Source: Rhodothermus sp. (GTDB taxonomy: Bacteria; Bacteroidota; Rhodothermia; Rhodothermales; Rhodothermaceae). From it: a stretch of 42,711 nt of DNA. The stretch's first letter is position 1; every line of letters begins with the position of its first letter. The notes below the pieces were generated by a model. It searched no databases and was not told where the DNA came from. It saw nothing but the letters and a program-made list of their open reading frames with translations. Both the position numbers and the translations under genes were made by a program. The stretch is taken from positions 1 through 42,711 of the forward strand of contig WFPM01000144.1 in the NCBI GenBank assembly GCA_015487635.1. Reading direction: 5' to 3'. Shown here piece by piece: positions 25,083 through 37,246 of this stretch.

Positions 25083-25859
25083 ATGTGCCAGAAGTGGGCA
25101 AGCTGGGCCCTGGCGCTTTCGTTGCTGATCGCCTCGCCCCTGAAAGGCCAGCAGTTCTTCACCGACTGCATCAGGGATACCGACAACAATGCGACGCTGA
25201 CCATCCCGCTGGAGACGCCGCCGTTGCTTAACGGCGAGCCCATTTCACCGGGTAGCGAGCTGGCAGCCTATACGCCGGAAGGCATCTGCGCGGGCGTGGC
25301 CGTATGGGATGGCCAGCAACCGCTGGTACTGACGCTCTGGGGCGACGATCCGCTGATCACACCCGACACCAAAGAAGGCTTCGCGCCCGGCGATACGATT
25401 CTGTTGCATCTGTGGGATCGGGCGCTGAACCAGCACTTCGGTCCGGATAACGGTCGTTTCGAAGTGCAGTACGCATCGGGCAGCGTGTTTCTGGATCGCG
25501 GAATCTATCAACCCAATGCTCTGTACAAGGTGGCTCGCCTGGCCATCGTGCCGGAGCAACCCACGCCGGTGGAGCCGATAGCCGAGCGGCTTCCGGACGC
25601 CACGCGCCTGCATCCGGCCTATCCCAGCCCATTTCGCACGCACACCACGCTGCAGGTGGATCTGTCGGAAGCTACGCGAGTCCGTCTCGCAGTGTACAAT
25701 CTGATAGGCCAGGAAGTAGCGCGGCTGTTCGAAGGGGCGCTGACCCCGGGCGTCTATCGCTACAGGTGGCGCCCGCAAGGCCTGCCTGCGGGACTGTACG
25801 TTGTCCGATTGGAAGCAGGCGCCCGGCGCTTTCAGCAGGTGATCGTTTACGTGCCCTGA
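25083..25859 (+). CDS. T9SS type A sorting domain-containing secreted protein
   Basis: 258 aa; signal peptide; C-terminal AYPSPFRTHTTLQVDLSEATRVRLAVYNLIGQEVARLFEG..GLYVVRLEAGARRFQQVIVYVP. Confidence 0.82.
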   Translation: MCQKWASWALALSLLIASPLKGQQFFTDCIRDTDNNATLTIPLETPPLLNGEPISPGSELAAYTPEGICAGVAVWDGQQPLVLTLWGDDPLITPDTKEGFAPGDTILLHLWDRALNQHFGPDNGRFEVQYASGSVFLDRGIYQPNALYKVARLAIVPEQPTPVEPIAERLPDATRLHPAYPSPFRTHTTLQVDLSEATRVRLAVYNLIGQEVARLFEGALTPGVYRYRWRPQGLPAGLYVVRLEAGARRFQQVIVYVP

Positions 25860-26170
25860 GCGTCGCGCGTCTCGATGAGACCCTGCGCCTGCAGATCGCG
25901 CATGAGGGCCAGCACGTCCTCGGCGCACTGCTCGAAGGTCACCTCGTACTCTTCGAGCAGCACCTCGCACACCTGACGCACGGAGCGCGGCTCCTGGATG
26001 AGCTCCCAGATGCGGGTGCCGATGGGGTCCAGTCCGTAGTAGACCCCGTTGCGAAGGTTCAGAATAACTACCTCATCGCCCAGCTTCGAGGAGACCTGCT
26101 CGGGAGAAGCGACGACAACGGTTTCCAGCGTCAGCACGGCGTGCGCCATCGGTGTGTCCGTTCGGCTCAT
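25847..26170 (-). CDS. PqqD-family / RiPP recognition element protein (lasso B1-like)
   Basis: 107 aa; VSSKLGDEVVILNLRNGVYYGLDPIGTRIWELIQEPRSVRQVCEVLLEEYEV typical PqqD fold motifs. Confidence 0.87.
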   Translation of the reverse strand: MSRTDTPMAHAVLTLETVVVASPEQVSSKLGDEVVILNLRNGVYYGLDPIGTRIWELIQEPRSVRQVCEVLLEEYEVTFEQCAEDVLALMRDLQAQGLIETRDAQGT

Positions 26171-26189: not shown

Positions 26190-28070
26190 CTACTGTCTTT
26201 TATCGGCACCCGGCAAGAAAACTTGCGCGGGAAGATCGGACGCCTCCGGCTCATAGTGTTGCCGCATCTGCCGCCGCCAGGAGGCGGCGTAGTGGCCGTT
26301 CAGGGCCAGCAGCTGATGGTGCGTGCCCTGTTCGATGACACGCCCTTCGTCCATCACGTAGATCAGGTCGGCCCGCATAGCCGTGGTGAACCGGTGCGTG
26401 ATGATCAGCGCGGTGCGGCCGCGCACCAGCTCGCCGAAGCGGTCCATCCACTCGGCCTCGGTCCACGAATCCATCGCACTGGTGGGTTCGTCGAGCACGA
26501 CGATGGGCGCCTGCCGGTAGAACGCCCGGGCCAGCGAGACCCGCTGCCACTCACCGCCGCTGAGTTCGGCTCCTTCTTCCGTAAACCATTTGCCCAGCAT
26601 TGTATCGTAGCCGTGCGGTAGCTTGCGGGCGATCTCGTCCACCATGGCGCTGCGGGCCGCCCGTTCGATCGCCTCGCGGGTGGGCGGCACCTTGAGGTCA
26701 CCCAGTGCAATGTTGCGGGCCAGCGTATCCTGATAGGGCACGGGAAATTGAAAGAGCACGGTGATGGCATCGAGCAGTTCGCGGCGGTGGAAGCGTCGCA
26801 GGTCGATCCCGTCGATGGTGACGCGTCCTTCGTCGGGGTCATAGAAGCGGCACAGCAGTTTGATGAGCGTGCTCTTGCCGGCGCCGTTGGCGCCTACGAT
26901 GGCGACAGTCTTTCCGGCCGGAATGAGCAGGTCGAGCTCTCGGAGAACCGGGCGGTCGCTGCCGGGATAGCGGAAGGTGACCTTTTCGAAGCGGATGCCT
27001 TCCCGGAGCCGCCGCGGCATGGGCACCGGGTCGTCCGGTTCGGGCAGGACGGTCTGAATTTCCAGAAAAGTAAACAGGTGCTCCAGAAAGAGCGTGTTCG
27101 CGTACATCTGTCCGGCGCTGCTGAGCAACGCACGCATGAGGCCCTGCCCCTGGTTAAAGGCCTGGTAGAACAGGGCCAGGTCGCCCAGTGAGGCCAGGCC
27201 GCGCAGCGCCCGCCCCACCATCCAGACCATCACGAGCGCGGTGGCCAGCAGACCCACCAGTCCGGCCCCGAGGCTGGCCCAGGCCTGACGGCGCATCAGG
27301 TCCAGGCGTCCTTCCCGGAGTCGCCGTCGCACCTCCTGGTACCGCTGCCGGAAGTGGTCGGCCAGATCGAACACGCGCACTTCCGGCGCAAAGAACGCCA
27401 TGGTCAGCAGGCGGTCGAAGTAGCCGGCGCGGCGTTGATCGACGGTGTGGGCCGTCCACCAGGCATGCTCGCGCCGGTGGTGGTGCACCACGACGAACAG
27501 CGCCGGCAGCGTGGTGATGAGCAGCGCCAGCGGGAGCCAGACGCTGTAATGCACCAGAATGGCCGCGATGCTAATGAGCGTGACGCCGTTCTGGAGCAGG
27601 CTGCCCAGGTTATCCAGCAGCGAGAGCGAGCGGCTGGCCGCCTCGCTGTTGGCCCGTTCCAGGTGGTCGTAGTAATCCGGGTTGTCGTAGAAGGCCAGAT
27701 CGACCTCGGCCGCCTTGGCGTGGATCAGGCTTTTCACATGATCCAGCACGTGCTCGGCCTGTGCTGTGCGGATCCAGCTCGTCAATCCGCTCAGCCCCTG
27801 CGAGAGCAGCAACACGCCCCCCATGAGCAGGGCCGGCCACAGGACGGGCTGCACGGTCTCCCAGGAAAGGCCGGTGCCGATGGCGGCCGCCACGGCATCC
27901 ACCAGGTGCTTTGTCAGGTACACCAGGGCGGCCGGCAGCACGCCTCCGATCAGGAGCAACAGCAGCCAGAGCAGTGTCCAGCGGCCCGTCGCTTCCCAGA
28001 TGAGTCGCAGCGCCCGTATCAGATAGGTCGTCTTCAGACGCGCTTCCTGAAGCATCCAGCGCCACGACAC
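26190..28070 (-). CDS. ABC transporter, fused TMD-NBD exporter (lasso D-like)
   Basis: 626 aa; VGANGAGKSTLIKLLCRFYDPDEG Walker A, LSGGEWQRVSLARAFYR signature, IVVLDEPTSAMD Walker B; no C39 peptidase domain at the N-terminus. Start could be GTG at 28070 or ATG at 28055. Confidence 0.9.
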   Translation of the reverse strand: MSWRWMLQEARLKTTYLIRALRLIWEATGRWTLLWLLLLLIGGVLPAALVYLTKHLVDAVAAAIGTGLSWETVQPVLWPALLMGGVLLLSQGLSGLTSWIRTAQAEHVLDHVKSLIHAKAAEVDLAFYDNPDYYDHLERANSEAASRSLSLLDNLGSLLQNGVTLISIAAILVHYSVWLPLALLITTLPALFVVVHHHRREHAWWTAHTVDQRRAGYFDRLLTMAFFAPEVRVFDLADHFRQRYQEVRRRLREGRLDLMRRQAWASLGAGLVGLLATALVMVWMVGRALRGLASLGDLALFYQAFNQGQGLMRALLSSAGQMYANTLFLEHLFTFLEIQTVLPEPDDPVPMPRRLREGIRFEKVTFRYPGSDRPVLRELDLLIPAGKTVAIVGANGAGKSTLIKLLCRFYDPDEGRVTIDGIDLRRFHRRELLDAITVLFQFPVPYQDTLARNIALGDLKVPPTREAIERAARSAMVDEIARKLPHGYDTMLGKWFTEEGAELSGGEWQRVSLARAFYRQAPIVVLDEPTSAMDSWTEAEWMDRFGELVRGRTALIITHRFTTAMRADLIYVMDEGRVIEQGTHHQLLALNGHYAASWRRQMRQHYEPEASDLPAQVFLPGADKRQ

Positions 28071-28148: not shown

Positions 28149-28367
28149 TCAGAGACCGCTCAGGTCGTCATACGGGCAGCGGTTGTTATGGTGATGATGC
28201 CACCAGTGATGACGACGTCGGCCACGACCACCTCCCCTGTGTTTCCAGCCTCCACCCGGCAGCCCTGGAGGATGCCCCCAGCCCGAACCGGTCATCGTCT
28301 CCAGCGAACCGAATTCCGTCAGTCTGGGACGCGCCCACGACTTCTTGGGCACTACAGCGTCCGACAT
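28149..28367 (-). CDS. Putative RiPP precursor A3 (lasso-type leader, Gly/His-rich tail)
   Basis: 72 aa MSDAVVPKKSWARPRLTEFGSLETMTGSGWGHPPGLPGGGWKHRGGGRGRRRHHWWHHHHNNRCPYDDLSGL; W..P.L...G.....T leader signature; directly upstream of the ABC exporter. Confidence 0.72.
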   Translation of the reverse strand: MSDAVVPKKSWARPRLTEFGSLETMTGSGWGHPPGLPGGGWKHRGGGRGRRRHHWWHHHHNNRCPYDDLSGL

Positions 28368-28476
28368 AGTTGTTCTTTTTTAGTGCAGAGGATCGAAGCT
28401 GCTTTTAATTTCAGAAAGGCGTCCTTCAGAAACCAACAGGCTTTCCCGCGCCGAAGATGCGCTTCTGGCGCAATCC

Positions 28477-28517
28477 AGAAAAGGCGTGATGCCCATTACC
28501 GGCACCACGCCTTTTCT
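28477..28517 (-). terminator. Intrinsic terminator after precursor A2
   Basis: AGAAAAGGCGTGGTGCC-GGTAATG-GGCATCACGCCTTTTCT on the minus strand; 17-bp stem with a single G.U wobble; bidirectional A/T flanks. Confidence 0.75.
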
Positions 28518-28537
28518 CAGATGAACATCCCGTGTCC

Positions 28538-28732
28538 TTACCGGCAGTCGCTGAGCGTACCGGGACCCAGCTCGGCGTCATATCGACCGCCATGCTTCCC
28601 GTACCAGCAGTCACCCGCTGTGACCTCGGCGGCCTTGCCGTGCATCACAAGCATGGGCTTTTGCCAAGGCCGCTTGATCGTTTCACCCTTCATGGCAGCA
28701 GCAAGTTGTATGGTTAATCGGGATGGGGTCAT
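28538..28732 (-). CDS. Putative RiPP precursor A2
   Basis: 64 aa as listed (or 51 aa from internal Met at 28693): MKGETIKRPWQKPMLVMHGKAAEVTA-GDCWYGKHGGRYDAELGPGTLSDCR; W..P.L...G.....T leader; paralog of A1. Confidence 0.78.
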   Translation of the reverse strand: MTPSRLTIQLAAAMKGETIKRPWQKPMLVMHGKAAEVTAGDCWYGKHGGRYDAELGPGTLSDCR

Positions 28733-28739
28733 CTCCTAA

Positions 28740-28895
28740 TTACCGGCAGTCGCTGAGCGTACCGGGACCCAGCTCGGCGTCATACTGCCCCCCCTTTTTT
28801 CCGTACCAGCAGCCATCACTGCTAGCCGTAATCTTCTGCGTTTTGCCGTGAATGGTCAAAACCGGCGTCTTCCAGGAGCGTTTCGTGTTACGCAT
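28740..28895 (-). CDS. Putative RiPP precursor A1 (not in supplied ORF list)
   Basis: Read directly: 51 aa MRNTKRSWKTPVLTIHGKTQKITASSDGCWYGKKGGQYDAELGPGTLSDCR; GAGGTG RBS upstream of ATG; tandem paralog of A2. Confidence 0.8.
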   Translation of the reverse strand: MRNTKRSWKTPVLTIHGKTQKITASSDGCWYGKKGGQYDAELGPGTLSDCR

Positions 28896-28997
28896 AACAG
28901 CACCTCACAACATTGATGACAGGTTTCGGTAGTAAAGATGCAAATGCCCTTGTGGCCATCCGTACCAGGAATGGCGGCACTTACATGCGCTTTTGGC

Positions 28998-31034
28998 TCA
29001 CCCATCCTGCGCCAAGACGGGAACACCAAGGTCAGCCTTCAGCCACTGAATAAGAATCAAACACAGATACAACGCCATATCCACCGAAGGATCGGTGTCT
29101 GCCTGATGCTGCTGCATATGCTCCCATGCCCGACGCAATCGTTCCGGTTCCACGAAAGGCTGCAATTGCGAAGCGGAAACAATCAGACGAACGATGCGCG
29201 CTTTTTCAAACTGCAGCAATCCAGTCGTGAACCCGTATCCGATATTGGCTTTTGAAGACCGCCACTGCACTTCTGGGGGCAGGATCCCCTCAAGCGCCCT
29301 GCGCAACAGATAGCGTGCCCATCCGTTGCGCAGCTTCCAAGACAGCGGCAAATGCATGCTCAGCGTAACGAGGCGCCGATCAAAGAAGGGAAACCGCTCC
29401 TCCACCTGGAGCCACCCGATCCGCGCATTGGCAAATTCAAGGACCCACTGCCAGATGCCTCCTGTCAACTGCTCCCAGTGATCTCTGCGGGGATGCCAGA
29501 CCTTCGGTCGCGTGGCCGGCTGACGCGCCAGCCAGCGGTCCAGCAACGGCGACAGGTGATAGGCGTCTGTAAAATGCGCGAGCAGCTGCTGCCGACGCAG
29601 GCGTCGGCGCGCGCGTCGTCGTCGCCATCCGGCGGGAATCCACGGCCGCACACCCGACTCCACCAGCAGCCTGCTGAACGCCAGGTCGAACCGGCGGTGC
29701 AGGTACCGCCCCCCTTCCCAAAAGTCCCGCCACCGCAGGGAACGGGCCCATCCGCTCAGCACCGCCCCACCGAACTTGTGCGCAAGGCGCTGCGGTGAAA
29801 GCCCCTCGACTTGTGCGAACACCTCTACCTCCTGTGCAAACCGTTCCCATTGCTTTTGGTAAAAAAGATCGGCCAGATGCGCCCATCCGTAGGTCAGTAC
29901 ACTGTCGCCATCCAGCCCACTCAGTACGATCCGCACCCCGTGTGACTGCATGGCCTGCGTCACACCAATGGGGATGTGATAATTTGCCGAAAAAAAAGGC
30001 TGACCGTACAGTTGAAGCATCATGTCCAGATTCATCAGAGGGCTCACCCGATCCGCCTGAAATACATGATGACACAGATTGGGAAAGCGCTGAATCACAG
30101 CAACGGCATACGATCGTTCGTCCACAGTCGCCCGCCACTCGTCGGGCACCTCTTCAAAAACGGCCGTACCGGCATGCAGCACCTGATCTCTCATAAGATG
30201 AGCCGCCATCCCGGTCACTGAGGAAGAATCCAATCCGCCACTGAGCTGTGCGCCCACGGGAAACGCACTGCGGAGCCGGCACCGGACGGCCTCCTCGAAA
30301 CAGGCGCGAAAGGCTTCCACGTACTCGGCTTCCGTCCTAAAATGCACCTCCTGCTCCAGATCGACCTGCCAGTAACGCCAGCAACGTAGCTCCCGGGCAT
30401 CCACCTGTAGCGCATGACCACCGGGCAAGCGCCGAATTGCCCGGTAAAACGTCCGCACGTTCTCCGTATCAAGCTTCAAGGCCAGATAACGCAGGATCAT
30501 TTCTTCGTCGATCTCCTGCGGCACCTCGGGCAACAGACGCACGGCCGGAAGCAGCGTGGCAAAGGCAAAGCGCCGGCCTTCGTGGAAGTAATAGAACGGT
30601 CGCACGCCCATGCCGTCGCGGGCGGCAAACAGCCGCCGGTGCTGCCGATCCCAGATAGCAAAGGCAAAATCGCCGATGAGCCGATCCGGGCAGTCGGCGC
30701 CCCAGCGGCGGTAGGCAGCCAGGATCAGCTCGGCATCTGTCACCGGTCGCTCGGCGGTCGATCGAAGACGCAGTGCTGCCAGCAGTTCGTCGCGGTTGTC
30801 GATCCGGGCATCGGCCACCAGCACCAGATCGCCTTCTGGAGCAACAAGCGGCTGCTGTTCGTGCAGCGACTCCGGCGTCGTATGGAGCATCCAGTGCGCC
30901 AGTAGCACGGACCCCTCGTGCCAGCAACCCTGGCCGTCCGGTCCCCGATGGGCCAGCACGTCCAGCGCCGGCCGTAGCGCTTCGGGGTCGATCGGGTGTC
31001 CGTCGAAATGGATCAGCCCAAAGATGGCACTCAT
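28998..31034 (-). CDS. Asparagine synthetase-like protein (lasso cyclase C-like)
   Basis: 678 aa; MSAIFGLIHFDG..LAHRGPDGQG; PP-loop LSGGLDSSSVTGMAAHL; no Cys at position 2; ATGA overlap with HPr-kinase-like gene. Confidence 0.87.
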   Translation of the reverse strand: MSAIFGLIHFDGHPIDPEALRPALDVLAHRGPDGQGCWHEGSVLLAHWMLHTTPESLHEQQPLVAPEGDLVLVADARIDNRDELLAALRLRSTAERPVTDAELILAAYRRWGADCPDRLIGDFAFAIWDRQHRRLFAARDGMGVRPFYYFHEGRRFAFATLLPAVRLLPEVPQEIDEEMILRYLALKLDTENVRTFYRAIRRLPGGHALQVDARELRCWRYWQVDLEQEVHFRTEAEYVEAFRACFEEAVRCRLRSAFPVGAQLSGGLDSSSVTGMAAHLMRDQVLHAGTAVFEEVPDEWRATVDERSYAVAVIQRFPNLCHHVFQADRVSPLMNLDMMLQLYGQPFFSANYHIPIGVTQAMQSHGVRIVLSGLDGDSVLTYGWAHLADLFYQKQWERFAQEVEVFAQVEGLSPQRLAHKFGGAVLSGWARSLRWRDFWEGGRYLHRRFDLAFSRLLVESGVRPWIPAGWRRRRARRRLRRQQLLAHFTDAYHLSPLLDRWLARQPATRPKVWHPRRDHWEQLTGGIWQWVLEFANARIGWLQVEERFPFFDRRLVTLSMHLPLSWKLRNGWARYLLRRALEGILPPEVQWRSSKANIGYGFTTGLLQFEKARIVRLIVSASQLQPFVEPERLRRAWEHMQQHQADTDPSVDMALYLCLILIQWLKADLGVPVLAQDG

Positions 31035-31999
31035 GCGTTTTCCTGCTGCATGAAGGTTTCGATGGCGGCCACCACGTCGGGTAACTGTTCCAGTGCAGGC
31101 GGACGCTCCAACGCCAGTAAGGGTACGTAACGGGCCAGATGGCCCACCTGCTGCAGGTGGCGCGCCGTGGCCCGCGTCTGCTCCAGCAGCACCCGCGTAT
31201 AGGTATGCAGCAATAGCTCCAGAAAGGCTTCCTGGCCCCGCAGCGGAAGAATCCGGACGTTATCGCCCGGGCGCAATGCAAACAATGCGGCCAGTGGCAG
31301 CGGACGATCCACGCCGTCCGGCAACCGGGCCACGCGTTTTTCGATGGCCGGATGTACACGCGGCAATCCGTCGAGCGCCATCTCCAGGGTCTGCGCGAGC
31401 GCATCCGGCCAGAGCTTGAGTTGCGGATAGGCAGGCAGAACCAGCGGCGGCCCATCCGGTCGCTCGTCCAGCACGAGCACATCGTCGGTCACCAGTGGAT
31501 AGCCCCGCGCATGCAGCGCGGCCGCCATGGTCGATTTACCGTGCCCTTTTTCGGCAATGAACGCCACCACCCGATCCCCCATGGCCACGGCACTGGCATG
31601 CAGCACCAGATGGCCCCGCTGGTGCATCAGAATGCCCAGTCCGATGCCCAGCAGAAGTACACGAAGCGTCTCGTCGGGCAGTTCAGGCGGCACGTCGTAG
31701 GTAATGCACCGTCCGTCCTCGATACGCAACAATCCGACTTCGTCGTAAATCAGCAGCGCTTCAGTGGGGGTCACGCGCAGGCGATTTCCCTGCCGCTCCA
31801 GCCCTTCGGCCATCGGTGCCAGCGCCTCCCGGTAGATGTACACATTCCCTGCAGCCGGAGCCGCTGGCCTGAGTTCGGGAAGCGGGACATCCGAACAGAC
31901 ATGCAGTCCGAAGACGTTGTAATGGTAGGGCCACGCCTGCCGGGCCCCCGGTTCTGGCTTCGATGTGACCGATACGGACGGGTTGCTTGCCATAAGCAT
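31031..31999 (-). CDS. HPr kinase-like P-loop protein (RiPP/lasso precursor kinase-like)
   Basis: 322 aa; FIAEKGHGKSTMAAALHARGYPLVTDDVLVLDE; overlaps the cyclase-like gene. Confidence 0.8.
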   Translation of the reverse strand: MLMASNPSVSVTSKPEPGARQAWPYHYNVFGLHVCSDVPLPELRPAAPAAGNVYIYREALAPMAEGLERQGNRLRVTPTEALLIYDEVGLLRIEDGRCITYDVPPELPDETLRVLLLGIGLGILMHQRGHLVLHASAVAMGDRVVAFIAEKGHGKSTMAAALHARGYPLVTDDVLVLDERPDGPPLVLPAYPQLKLWPDALAQTLEMALDGLPRVHPAIEKRVARLPDGVDRPLPLAALFALRPGDNVRILPLRGQEAFLELLLHTYTRVLLEQTRATARHLQQVGHLARYVPLLALERPPALEQLPDVVAAIETFMQQENA

Positions 32000-34415: not shown

Positions 34416-36059
34416 TCAGGTCAGACGGGTTCTTAGATGATCGGCAAGCCGCAAGGTCAGTGCCACAATAGTCAACGTCGGGTTTGCAAAACCGGCGGTC
34501 GGGAAAACGGACGATCCGGCCACGTACAGGTTCTTTACACCATGCACCCGAGCGTCGGGATCCACCACGCCCTCACGAGGACTGGCATGCATGCGCGTGG
34601 TGCCCATGTGGTGAAATCCGCCCGTGATGCCATCGGGCGGAATGCGCCGAAATTCTTCTTCCTGCACGCTGCCCCACCCTAGCCGAGCCAGCTCCTGCGC
34701 CACCAGGTGTTGTGCCCGCTGCAAACTTTCCACATCCTGGCGGCTGATCTGCCAGTGCAGTTCCAGCCGTGGCTGGCCGAACGCGTCCCGGCGCCGGGAA
34801 AGCCGCACCCGGCTTTCGGGATGGGGCGCTTGCTCGGTCATGTGATGTAGCACGAAGGCGACCGGCGTCCGCGTCGCAGTCGTCGGTTTCCCCTTCAAAG
34901 CAAGGAGTCGGGTGGTGGCCCAGGGAACGAGTCGCGGCATGTCGTGCACCAGCTGGAAAAGGTGGCGGGGCAGATCTTCGGGCCAGGTGCGATGCCGGAC
35001 GGCTTCGCGCAACACGCGGAGTGCTTCAAATCCGCCCCAGAGCAGCGGGTTATTGCGGCGAGGCAATGCCAGGCGATCGGTCGGCCAGAGTGCCACGCAG
35101 TAGTTCAGCAGTCCCTCTCGCCGCACCACCTCCTCTTGCAGGGCCAATTTGCCCATCACCCACATGCCTTCATGCGCATGCAGTCGGTAAAAACCCAGTT
35201 GTGGAATCAGCGTCCGGTCGGCCGGCACGAACAGGCCCGAAAGAAAATGCAGGTGCTCCATGAAAAAACGCCCCACCCGATCGTAGGTGTTGCCCAGCCC
35301 GTTCGGGCAGACCCGATTCGAAAGCAGGAGCAGCCGCGCATTCTCCAGGCCACCGGCCGCCAGCACCACACAGCGCGCGCGTACGGTGACTTCGCTCCGA
35401 TCCGGCCGGGCTACTCGGACGCCTTTCACCACTTCGCCGGTATCATTCGTCAGCAGCTCCAGCGCATGCGCGTGCAGGCACACCGTCACGTTCGGATCGG
35501 CCAGCAACGCGGGCCCGTAGTCCCGATAAAATCGAGCGGGATCGCCAAACTGAAACAATGCAGTCCGCAGCACCGCACTTCCTTCCGACAGCAGCGGGCG
35601 TTCCGTAGCCGAAGCCCATGCCTCGGCCGTGTAGGGACGGTCTTCCAGCCCGAAGAAAGCCTGCGCTCGGCGATAATACGGCGCCAGCGTCTCGTACCCG
35701 AACGGCCATCCACTGAAGGGGACCGCTTCGCGCCGCTCGAAGTCGATCGGATCAAGCGGCCGCAGCCGGATACGGCACACACCGGGCGCCACTTCGTAGT
35801 CCCACAGATGGCTGGAACCTCCCAGCGCCCGCGCCCGGACCATGTCCAAGGGAAAGTAGGGATACCCTGTGATGTCGCCCCGGCTGAGCCGGGCACTCTC
35901 CGGATCCGGCCGTTCGCCGCCACTTTCCAGCACGCAGATGCCCAGCCCGCTGTCGCGCAACGCCCAGGCCAGCGTCAGTCCGGCCACCCCGCCCCCTACA
36001 ATGCACAGATCGTAGGGACCCAGCTCCGATCGATCGAACGCTTTCAGATCGATTTTCAT
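34416..36059 (-). CDS. GMC-family FAD-dependent oxidoreductase
   Basis: MKIDLKAFDRSELGPYDLCIVGGGVAGLTLAWALRDSGLGICVLESG; GSSHLW; C-terminal HHMGTTRMHASPREGVVDPDARVHGVKNLYVAGSSVFPTAGFANPTLTIVAL. Start chosen at internal Met with ATGA overlap. Confidence 0.88.
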   Translation of the reverse strand: MKIDLKAFDRSELGPYDLCIVGGGVAGLTLAWALRDSGLGICVLESGGERPDPESARLSRGDITGYPYFPLDMVRARALGGSSHLWDYEVAPGVCRIRLRPLDPIDFERREAVPFSGWPFGYETLAPYYRRAQAFFGLEDRPYTAEAWASATERPLLSEGSAVLRTALFQFGDPARFYRDYGPALLADPNVTVCLHAHALELLTNDTGEVVKGVRVARPDRSEVTVRARCVVLAAGGLENARLLLLSNRVCPNGLGNTYDRVGRFFMEHLHFLSGLFVPADRTLIPQLGFYRLHAHEGMWVMGKLALQEEVVRREGLLNYCVALWPTDRLALPRRNNPLLWGGFEALRVLREAVRHRTWPEDLPRHLFQLVHDMPRLVPWATTRLLALKGKPTTATRTPVAFVLHHMTEQAPHPESRVRLSRRRDAFGQPRLELHWQISRQDVESLQRAQHLVAQELARLGWGSVQEEEFRRIPPDGITGGFHHMGTTRMHASPREGVVDPDARVHGVKNLYVAGSSVFPTAGFANPTLTIVALTLRLADHLRTRLT

Positions 36060-37246
36060 GAAGCCCTGCCGGGATGCAACCGCTCTACCAGCACACGTAC
36101 CGGGCGAATCACCGGATAGAGAAAGGTAAGGCGTTTCGGCAACCGACAGAACACTCGATCCTTTTCTGTAGGCGCCAGTGCCAGTTTCAGGTGATGGCCC
36201 AGGTAGCCGAAGCGATGACGCCAGCGCTCGCGTTCCCGAAAGTGATACCAGAACATGGGCCAGAAGGCGCGCACGTTGGCGTCGTCCCGAAACATCCAGC
36301 GCGTGACCACCTCGCGAGTCATACGCCGGGCTGCTCGCCGCTGGCGAAGTCCTCGTTGCAGCACGTCCGGCACCGGTGCGCCCAGCAGCTCGGCGGCCAG
36401 CGTACATCCGATGGCCAGCACGCGCATTGTCCCCAGACGATGCGCCTGTTGCAGCACGGCCGCTCCGTCCAGGTCGGGACAGCGACGCAGCAGTTCGGCC
36501 ACGTCGGCCACCCAGTTCAGTTTCAGCCAGCGATGTTTGTTGCCGTGAATGACCAGATAGAGCAACAGGTCCTCGGGCGCCATGGTGCGTAGCCTTCGTC
36601 CGGCAAAGGGAACCTGCCGGTGTCGTGCCCAGATCGCCTCGGGATCCAGCGGCAGGTCGTAGATCGTGTAGAAAAAGGCCCAGTGCAGCTCAACGACAAA
36701 GTCGCGGCTTTCGTGAACAAATTCAAACCCGAGCTGCGTGTCCAGATAGGCTTCTGTTTCGGCCTCCTCCAGTTTTTTATGGGCCCGGTAGCCCAGCGAC
36801 TCGAGGACCCGTCGGGCTTTCCAGAAGTCGCTCCGTTTTACCAGCAGGTCGATGTCCACATAGACCCGCGCCGCCGGATCCCCGTAGATGAGCGCGGCTA
36901 GGGCCGGCCCTTTGAAGGGAATTACCGGAATCCCCTCGGCCTCCAGCCGATCGACCAGCCGCAGGAGTTCTTGCGTCTGATGCAGGTTGTGGACGGTCAG
37001 CGCCCGCGCCTCAGCCTCCAGCCGGGTACGCCACGGCTCCGGCACGGCCTCGGGTACCGCCGCCAGCAGGTTCCGGTATACCGGCGCCACCACGCCATGC
37101 CGTAGTGTCCACCGGTACAGCCGTTCCCAGTCGAGCGGTTGTGCCAGCAGCGCCTGCAACTGCGCAGCAGCCGGCGGATCCAGACGGGTTCGCGCCGCCA
37201 GCGTCAGCACCCGTGCTTCCGGTGAAAGGGACGAAACGAGCGACAT
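36056..37246 (-). CDS. Nucleotidyltransferase family protein (PF14907-like)
   Basis: 396 aa; VIPFKGPALAALIYGDPAARVYVDIDLLVKRSDFWKARRVLESLGY, ELHWAFF, LLLYLVIHGNKHRWLKLNWVADVAELL. Confidence 0.82.
   Translation of the reverse strand: MSLVSSLSPEARVLTLAARTRLDPPAAAQLQALLAQPLDWERLYRWTLRHGVVAPVYRNLLAAVPEAVPEPWRTRLEAEARALTVHNLHQTQELLRLVDRLEAEGIPVIPFKGPALAALIYGDPAARVYVDIDLLVKRSDFWKARRVLESLGYRAHKKLEEAETEAYLDTQLGFEFVHESRDFVVELHWAFFYTIYDLPLDPEAIWARHRQVPFAGRRLRTMAPEDLLLYLVIHGNKHRWLKLNWVADVAELLRRCPDLDGAAVLQQAHRLGTMRVLAIGCTLAAELLGAPVPDVLQRGLRQRRAARRMTREVVTRWMFRDDANVRAFWPMFWYHFRERERWRHRFGYLGHHLKLALAPTEKDRVFCRLPKRLTFLYPVIRPVRVLVERLHPGRAS

Follow-up and report, generated by a model that had tools for sequence, protein, structure and literature searches.

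The Rhodothermus DNA analysed here encodes, between two lasso peptide precursors and an exporter, a third precursor-like open reading frame (A3), and the question that this locus raises is what kind of peptide A3 specifies. We favour, with moderate confidence, the explanation that A3 is a third precursor of the lasso cluster which is itself non-lasso and gives a linear, leader-directed RiPP. The window (the whole stretch analysed, 42,711 nucleotides) is contig C144 of a Rhodothermus draft genome of 3.03 Mb (G000), and the genes that bear on the question are the following:

36056..37246, minus strand: nucleotidyltransferase-like gene of the lasso/LPP type, upstream of the kinase, assigned without a profile scan from its appearance and from relatives beside lasso genes
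31031..31999, minus strand: HprK-like kinase, with LHAS...GHGKST...TDD as its His-Lys-Asp-Asp signature
28998..31034, minus strand: lasso macrolactam cyclase (C), NF033535
28740..28895, minus strand: A1, a rhodolasso precursor matching NF033534
28538..28693, minus strand: A2, a rhodolasso precursor matching NF033534, with the ATG at 28693 chosen by alignment and a longer start at 28732 possible
28149..28367, minus strand: A3, a precursor-like peptide of 72 aa with an ATG start, with homologues in 7/7 genomes of the genus and under purifying selection
26190..28070, minus strand: MsbA-type ABC exporter (D), 84-96% identical within the genus
25847..26170, minus strand: PqqD-like RRE (B1), lasso_PqqD_Bac NF033536

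In the order of transcription on the minus strand, a nucleotidyltransferase-like gene, a GMC oxidoreductase, a SAF-domain-like gene, an endonuclease/exonuclease/phosphatase-like gene and the HprK-like kinase are followed by the cyclase, A1, A2, a terminator, A3, the ABC exporter and the PqqD-like RRE. The SAF-domain-like, endonuclease/exonuclease/phosphatase-like and nucleotidyltransferase-like genes are named from sequence appearance and neighbours only. The lasso assignments come from model scores: A1 and A2 reached 98 bits with NF033534 'rhodolasso' (cut-off 30), the cyclase reached 813 bits with NF033535 (cut-off 525) and the cluster RRE 80.7 bits with NF033536 (cut-off 80). The exporter ORF starts at 28070, approximately 80 nt downstream of A3, and is followed by the RRE gene (26170..25847). 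B1 and C are both present in the window and no B2 leader protease was found within it; each genome of the genus has one B2-type protease gene, encoded away from the lasso cluster and adjoining a second PqqD.

A3 consists of a leader, MSDAVVPKKSWARPRLTEFGSLETMTG, and a 45-residue tail, SGWGHPPGLPGGGWKHRGGGRGRRRHHWWHHHHNNRCPYDDLSGL. The sequence-only reading had described it as an ORF with a lasso leader and a long tail which lacks acids until near its C-terminus, and this was confirmed, the only acids of the tail being Asp67 and Asp68. We compared A3 across seven genomes of a single genus, several of which are drafts broken into contigs at the A3 locus. A homologue adjoining the ABC exporter-RRE pair was found in 7/7 Rhodothermus genomes searched: in six genomes A3 has the lasso precursors/cyclase on one side and the exporter on the other, and in G004 only 17 nt of contig precede A3, after which come the exporter and RRE. 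Loss of this position in relatives had been named beforehand as a finding that would count against A3 as a substrate of the cluster; A3 is kept beside the exporter and RRE in every genome of the set, even where cyclase identity drops to 51-57%. Outside the genus, a profile search of a 396-genome phylum sample found no homologue in the other 390 genomes, a single-sequence search of GTDB contigs gave no matches, an alignment-based search returned a Rhodothermus MAG as its sole match, and in other genera 20 extended regions surrounding lasso-type RREs contained lasso precursors and no A3-like companion. Literature searches turned up neither A3 nor any rhodolasso product.

The A3 protein is under purifying selection. 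The frame and stop are intact in all homologues, most of which have the other five frames broken, and whole-protein dN/dS was approximately 0.06-0.5 for most pairs and low in leader and tail alike; the highest value, 0.78, came from one of the most distant pairs. An ORF on the opposite strand (28188-28739, plus strand) was rejected as spurious, with the antisense frames broken in most homologues. It should also be noted that G006 has two cyclase-precursor modules on separate contigs (L027 and L028) with A3 after each, one of them cut by the contig end, and that one G006 precursor (L027:2474-2650) has Ile in place of the leader Thr.

We then considered how A3 may be expressed, for which three features between A2 and A3 and upstream of A1 are relevant:

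28473..28522, minus strand: intrinsic terminator-like hairpin between A2 and A3 with a 17-bp stem, from folding and shuffles
28457..28469, minus strand: upstream element GCCAGAAGCGCAT, just downstream of the hairpin and ending 89 nt before the A3 ATG
28985..28997, minus strand: the same element, GCCAAAAGCGCAT, ending 89 nt before the A1 ATG

The hairpin has a folding energy of -35 kcal/mol (z -6.2; no shuffle equally stable), and G003 has a sequence-divergent equivalent in its A2-A3 gap (z -5.3). Together with the gene map, this bears out the placement of A3 after a terminator and before the exporter and RRE which had been read from the window. The element, GCCARAAGCGCAT, is a short dyad which was spotted by eye in the alignment; in G000, G001, G002, G003 and G005 it precedes the start codons of both A1 and A3 by 87-94 nt (0-2 mismatches), and in G006 it is found at this spacing in one contig with 2-3 mismatches and is missing from the second. 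Each genome has 2-5 exact copies, and a sigma-70 promoter scan gave nothing above chance. Since a terminator stands upstream of A3 and the element is at equal distance from A1 and A3, A3 is probably transcribed from a separate start and controlled together with A1; the element itself may be only a promoter part. The earlier suggestion of separate A3 expression is therefore likely as far as the upstream region can tell.

We do not claim a regulon for this element, as most of its other copies are inside long ORFs and one recurring copy looks like a terminator, being a hairpin and then T's upstream of a 65-aa ORF. This ORF (MERPNERMAQAFRQL...GWIAYRHFNCPFGESEMACRIWVRFRQYTTRN) is conserved in several genomes of the genus (L098, L102, L105, L112 and L117) and has upstream of it ATGCGCCARAAGCGCATGTTTTT, the dyad also found before A1 and A3, here followed by T's.

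Within A3, leader and tail differ strongly in how they are conserved:

28287..28367, minus strand: A3 leader, residues 1-27 (...KKSWARPRLTEFGSLETMTG), with the motif WxxPxL...G...T
28152..28286, minus strand: A3 tail, residues 28-72, with conserved ends, a variable middle and no acid at core positions 7-9

The leader residues K8, K9, W11, R13, P14, L16, G20, T26 and G27 are invariant in the seven A3 homologues. Searching all six frames of the window for the strict motif W..P.L...G.{5}T gave three hits, namely A1, A2 and A3, compared with 7 occurrences in 100 base-shuffled windows and 43 in 200,000 residue shuffles of A3 itself. In profile comparisons A3 matched A1/A2 with E 3.5e-6 over 25 leader residues, and lasso precursors from related genera with E 1e-6, the match being essentially confined to the leader. 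These motif counts and profile matches bear out the proposal that A3 carries a lasso-type leader, and A3 also has both the [Y/W]xxPx[L/V/I/F/A] motif and the Thr at the penultimate leader position by which lasso precursors are recognised. Against family models, A3 of the window did not match NF033534 (threshold 30 bits) and its G001 homologue gave a leader-only match of 16.7 bits; the NF033528 leader model matched A3 weakly (12.6 bits, cut-off 33) and NF033521 (lasso_leader_L3) did not match up to E = 1. The NF033521 proteins have the same general lasso-leader architecture as A3, and precursors from relatives in the order do match that model.

Small orphan ORFs were also found away from cyclase genes, at L156 (G000 contig C95), L023:15145-15300 (minus strand), L026:14905-15060 (minus strand), L153 and L094; their leaders are lasso-like (FExPRLxxxGRL...T and similar) and their tails very short (GGFVFS, GGSFNFS).

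The tail is of low complexity and ranges from 35 to 48 aa in the genus. Its start (SG[W/F]G.PP..P) and the stretch near its end (LS(G)L) are conserved, and its middle is Arg/His-rich in G000, Gly-rich in G003, His/Pro-rich in G004 and G006 and Pro/Trp/Asn-rich in G001. One explanation for such a protein is a leader-bearing regulator or decoy, which would occupy the RRE, and perhaps the exporter, and so tune lasso output, with the tail mostly a solubility or degradation handle. The same leader and RRE class as for A1/A2, the high variability of the tail middle in length and composition, and the location of A3 within the exporter-RRE unit behind a terminator and a putative promoter of its own would all suit a decoy; the conserved tail ends and the purifying selection on the tail, however, would be unneeded by a mere decoy, and we consider this explanation unlikely.

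If A3 were instead a genuine lasso precursor whose ring is unusual, formed for instance through a C-terminal Asp or from another core start, the leader, the locus and the cyclase in common with A1/A2 would be accounted for. Lasso cores require an Asp or Glu at position 7-9 for the macrolactam (PMC9266682). With Thr26 taken as position -2 and the core starting at Ser28, this ring acid is absent in 7/7 A3 homologues; the G001 tail, SGFGNPPWLPFNWKPPHWRPPNWPPGPNSGNGGTNQPIPLGGPNLSGL, contains no Asp or Glu anywhere, and elsewhere most acids are ≤6 residues from the C-terminus, which leaves no tail to thread. Judged by its residues, the A3 tail is not a lasso core. A1 and A2 also lack an acid at 7-9 when counted from Thr+2, which lends the unusual ring some support, but A3 is conserved where the cyclase diverges and we regard a lasso fate for A3 as very improbable.

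As an observation on the rhodolasso cores themselves (28538-28895), the absence of an acid at positions 7-9 counted from the leader Thr+2 is accompanied by an invariant Asp at about 13-16, in GKxGGxxD, which would imply either a later core start (GKxGGxYD, giving a ring of 8) or an unusual ring.

A functionless relic of a duplicated lasso precursor with a drifted core would explain why the leader, and perhaps the C-terminus, look inherited (DDLSGL in A3 compared with DLTFSGPLH and DDLTFSVCS in related genera), but such a relic is hard to reconcile with a gene intact in 7/7 genomes, with dN/dS well below 1 and with conserved termini and cis element, and the probability that we give it is very small. 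A secreted peptide which binds metal (Zn, Cu or Ni) through its His/Trp/Cys tail is the least probable explanation, since the eight His of G000, G004 and G006 and the one Cys near the C-terminus in 6/7 homologues are set against four His in G002 and G005, three in G003, and a single His with Cys absent in G001. Because the His cluster varies between species in this way, metal binding cannot be what the tail does in general; the metal-binding role first read into the tail was thus not borne out, and the search for homologues that combine a lasso leader with a His-rich tail recovered the leader in 7/7 and failed to recover the His-rich tail as a conserved trait.

The preferred explanation, that A3 is a linear leader-directed precursor, requires that its leader be read by the machinery of the cluster. 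The Trp of WxxP is invariant in A3 (7/7) and in A1/A2-type sequences of Rhodothermus (10/10), and precursors of related genera have an invariant Tyr at the first motif position (YxxP, 9/9). In Bacillota this Trp versus Tyr choice is the main discriminator and the RRE residue LppB N33 / PbaB1 G42 contributes (PMC13381572). At this site the Rhodothermus cluster RREs have Asp (6/6 compared) and the RREs of relatives have Asn (11/11); the second Rhodothermus PqqD (contig C28 type) also has Asn. This co-variation of Trp and Asp in Rhodothermus suggests that A3 changed together with A1/A2 and the cluster RRE, and from the leader Trp and the RRE selectivity residue we infer that the cluster RRE may bind A3; it should be noted that, for RRE sharing, the co-variation is a single evolutionary event in one genus and is suggestive. 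We rejected a paeninodin-type, Trp-selective assignment for the cluster RRE, in which Asp stands at the positions of PbaB1 Gly42 and Gln79; because Asp is kept at the LppB D70 site, the cluster RRE is not of the paeninodin type.

The closest known kind to A3 is that of the linear polyphosphorylated peptides (LPP) of Bacillota (PMC13381572). LPP precursors, like A3, have a lasso-like leader without a lasso core, a conserved leader and a variable C-terminus, and are found beside lasso clusters; the core of the studied LppA is 45 aa (PMC13381572), compared with 35-48 aa in the A3 homologues, and the LPP accessory set of HprK-like kinase, RRE, NTP transferase and MsbA-like exporter is present at the A3 locus. 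LPP clusters have their own RRE, the leader YxxPxVLxHQxIxFETxxS and a SipW-like signal peptidase (PMC13381572). The A3 leader, WARPRLTEFGSLETMTGS, departs from that consensus with Trp for Tyr and FG for HQ; the archaeal-type (SipW-like) signal peptidase (TIGR02228) was found in 0/7 genomes of the genus, with positive controls; and where LPP have an RRE of their own, that of A3 is apparently common with the lasso precursors. On these three grounds we do not file A3 as an LPP member, although it may work like one. Paeninodin-type clusters resemble the A3 cluster in their WxxP leaders, HprK-like kinase, nucleotidyltransferase and conserved Ser near the C-terminus, and differ from it in that paeninodin has a ring acid and a C-terminal Ser and that its RREs have Gly, not Asp, at the selectivity site. 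The rhodolasso precursors A1/A2 (NF033534) share with A3 the WxxPxL...G...T leader, the locus, the upstream element with its spacing and a near-C-terminal Leu-Ser, whereas the cores are unrelated, with two Cys and an invariant Asp in A1/A2 and a Gly/Pro/Trp(/His/Arg)-rich sequence without a ring acid in A3.

For A3 as a linear precursor, we propose the following route. A3 would have a promoter of its own, and the common upstream element would keep its transcription in step with that of A1/A2. The RRE (B1) which reads A1/A2 would also bind the A3 leader (26-27 residues) via KKxWxRPxL, and a B2-type protease, encoded beside the second PqqD, would cut A3 near Thr26-Gly27; that the window itself encodes no leader peptidase weighs against the explanation. 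The tail would stay linear, as it could not form a macrolactam, and the exporter encoded directly downstream would secrete it. The HprK-like kinase could possibly phosphorylate the conserved Ser28 or Ser70. This kinase step is suggested by the kinase signature, which is that described for HprK-like kinases (PMC9266682), by the Ser near the end of A3 and of A1/A2, and by analogy to lasso and LPP kinases: the HprK-like enzymes of lasso pathways target the Ser at the C-terminus (PMC9266682) and HprK-like kinases modify core Ser of LPP precursors. Every A3 homologue has Ser28 and Ser70 (7/7), and a near-C-terminal Ser is found in 9/10 A1/A2 sequences; Ser70 is third from the end of A3, compared with the last residue in paeninodin.

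We further propose, tentatively and with slightly more doubt than conviction, that a single RRE and a single exporter handle two products, one a cyclised lasso peptide and the other a linear peptide rich in Gly/Pro/Trp(/His), with the common element co-regulating both. If this is true, lasso machinery has been extended to linear cargo outside Bacillota by an added precursor, without the RRE duplication and re-specialising seen in LPP. Recent work has argued that lasso and LPP RREs diverged to avoid interference; Rhodothermus appears to be the opposite, with one leader type and one RRE for the lasso set and a non-lasso peptide, making the A3 cluster a clean, testable case of RRE sharing. It would also mean that genome mining which demands a ring acid misses real substrates in lasso clusters.

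The B2 genes of the genus have a setting of their own. At L029 (G000 contig C28, 8687-11560, minus strand), and also at L088-L092, B2 is found with its own PqqD and without a cyclase, and most of these loci also contain an HprK-like kinase and a nucleotidyltransferase, which together make up an LPP-like gene set in which B2 replaces the signal peptidase.
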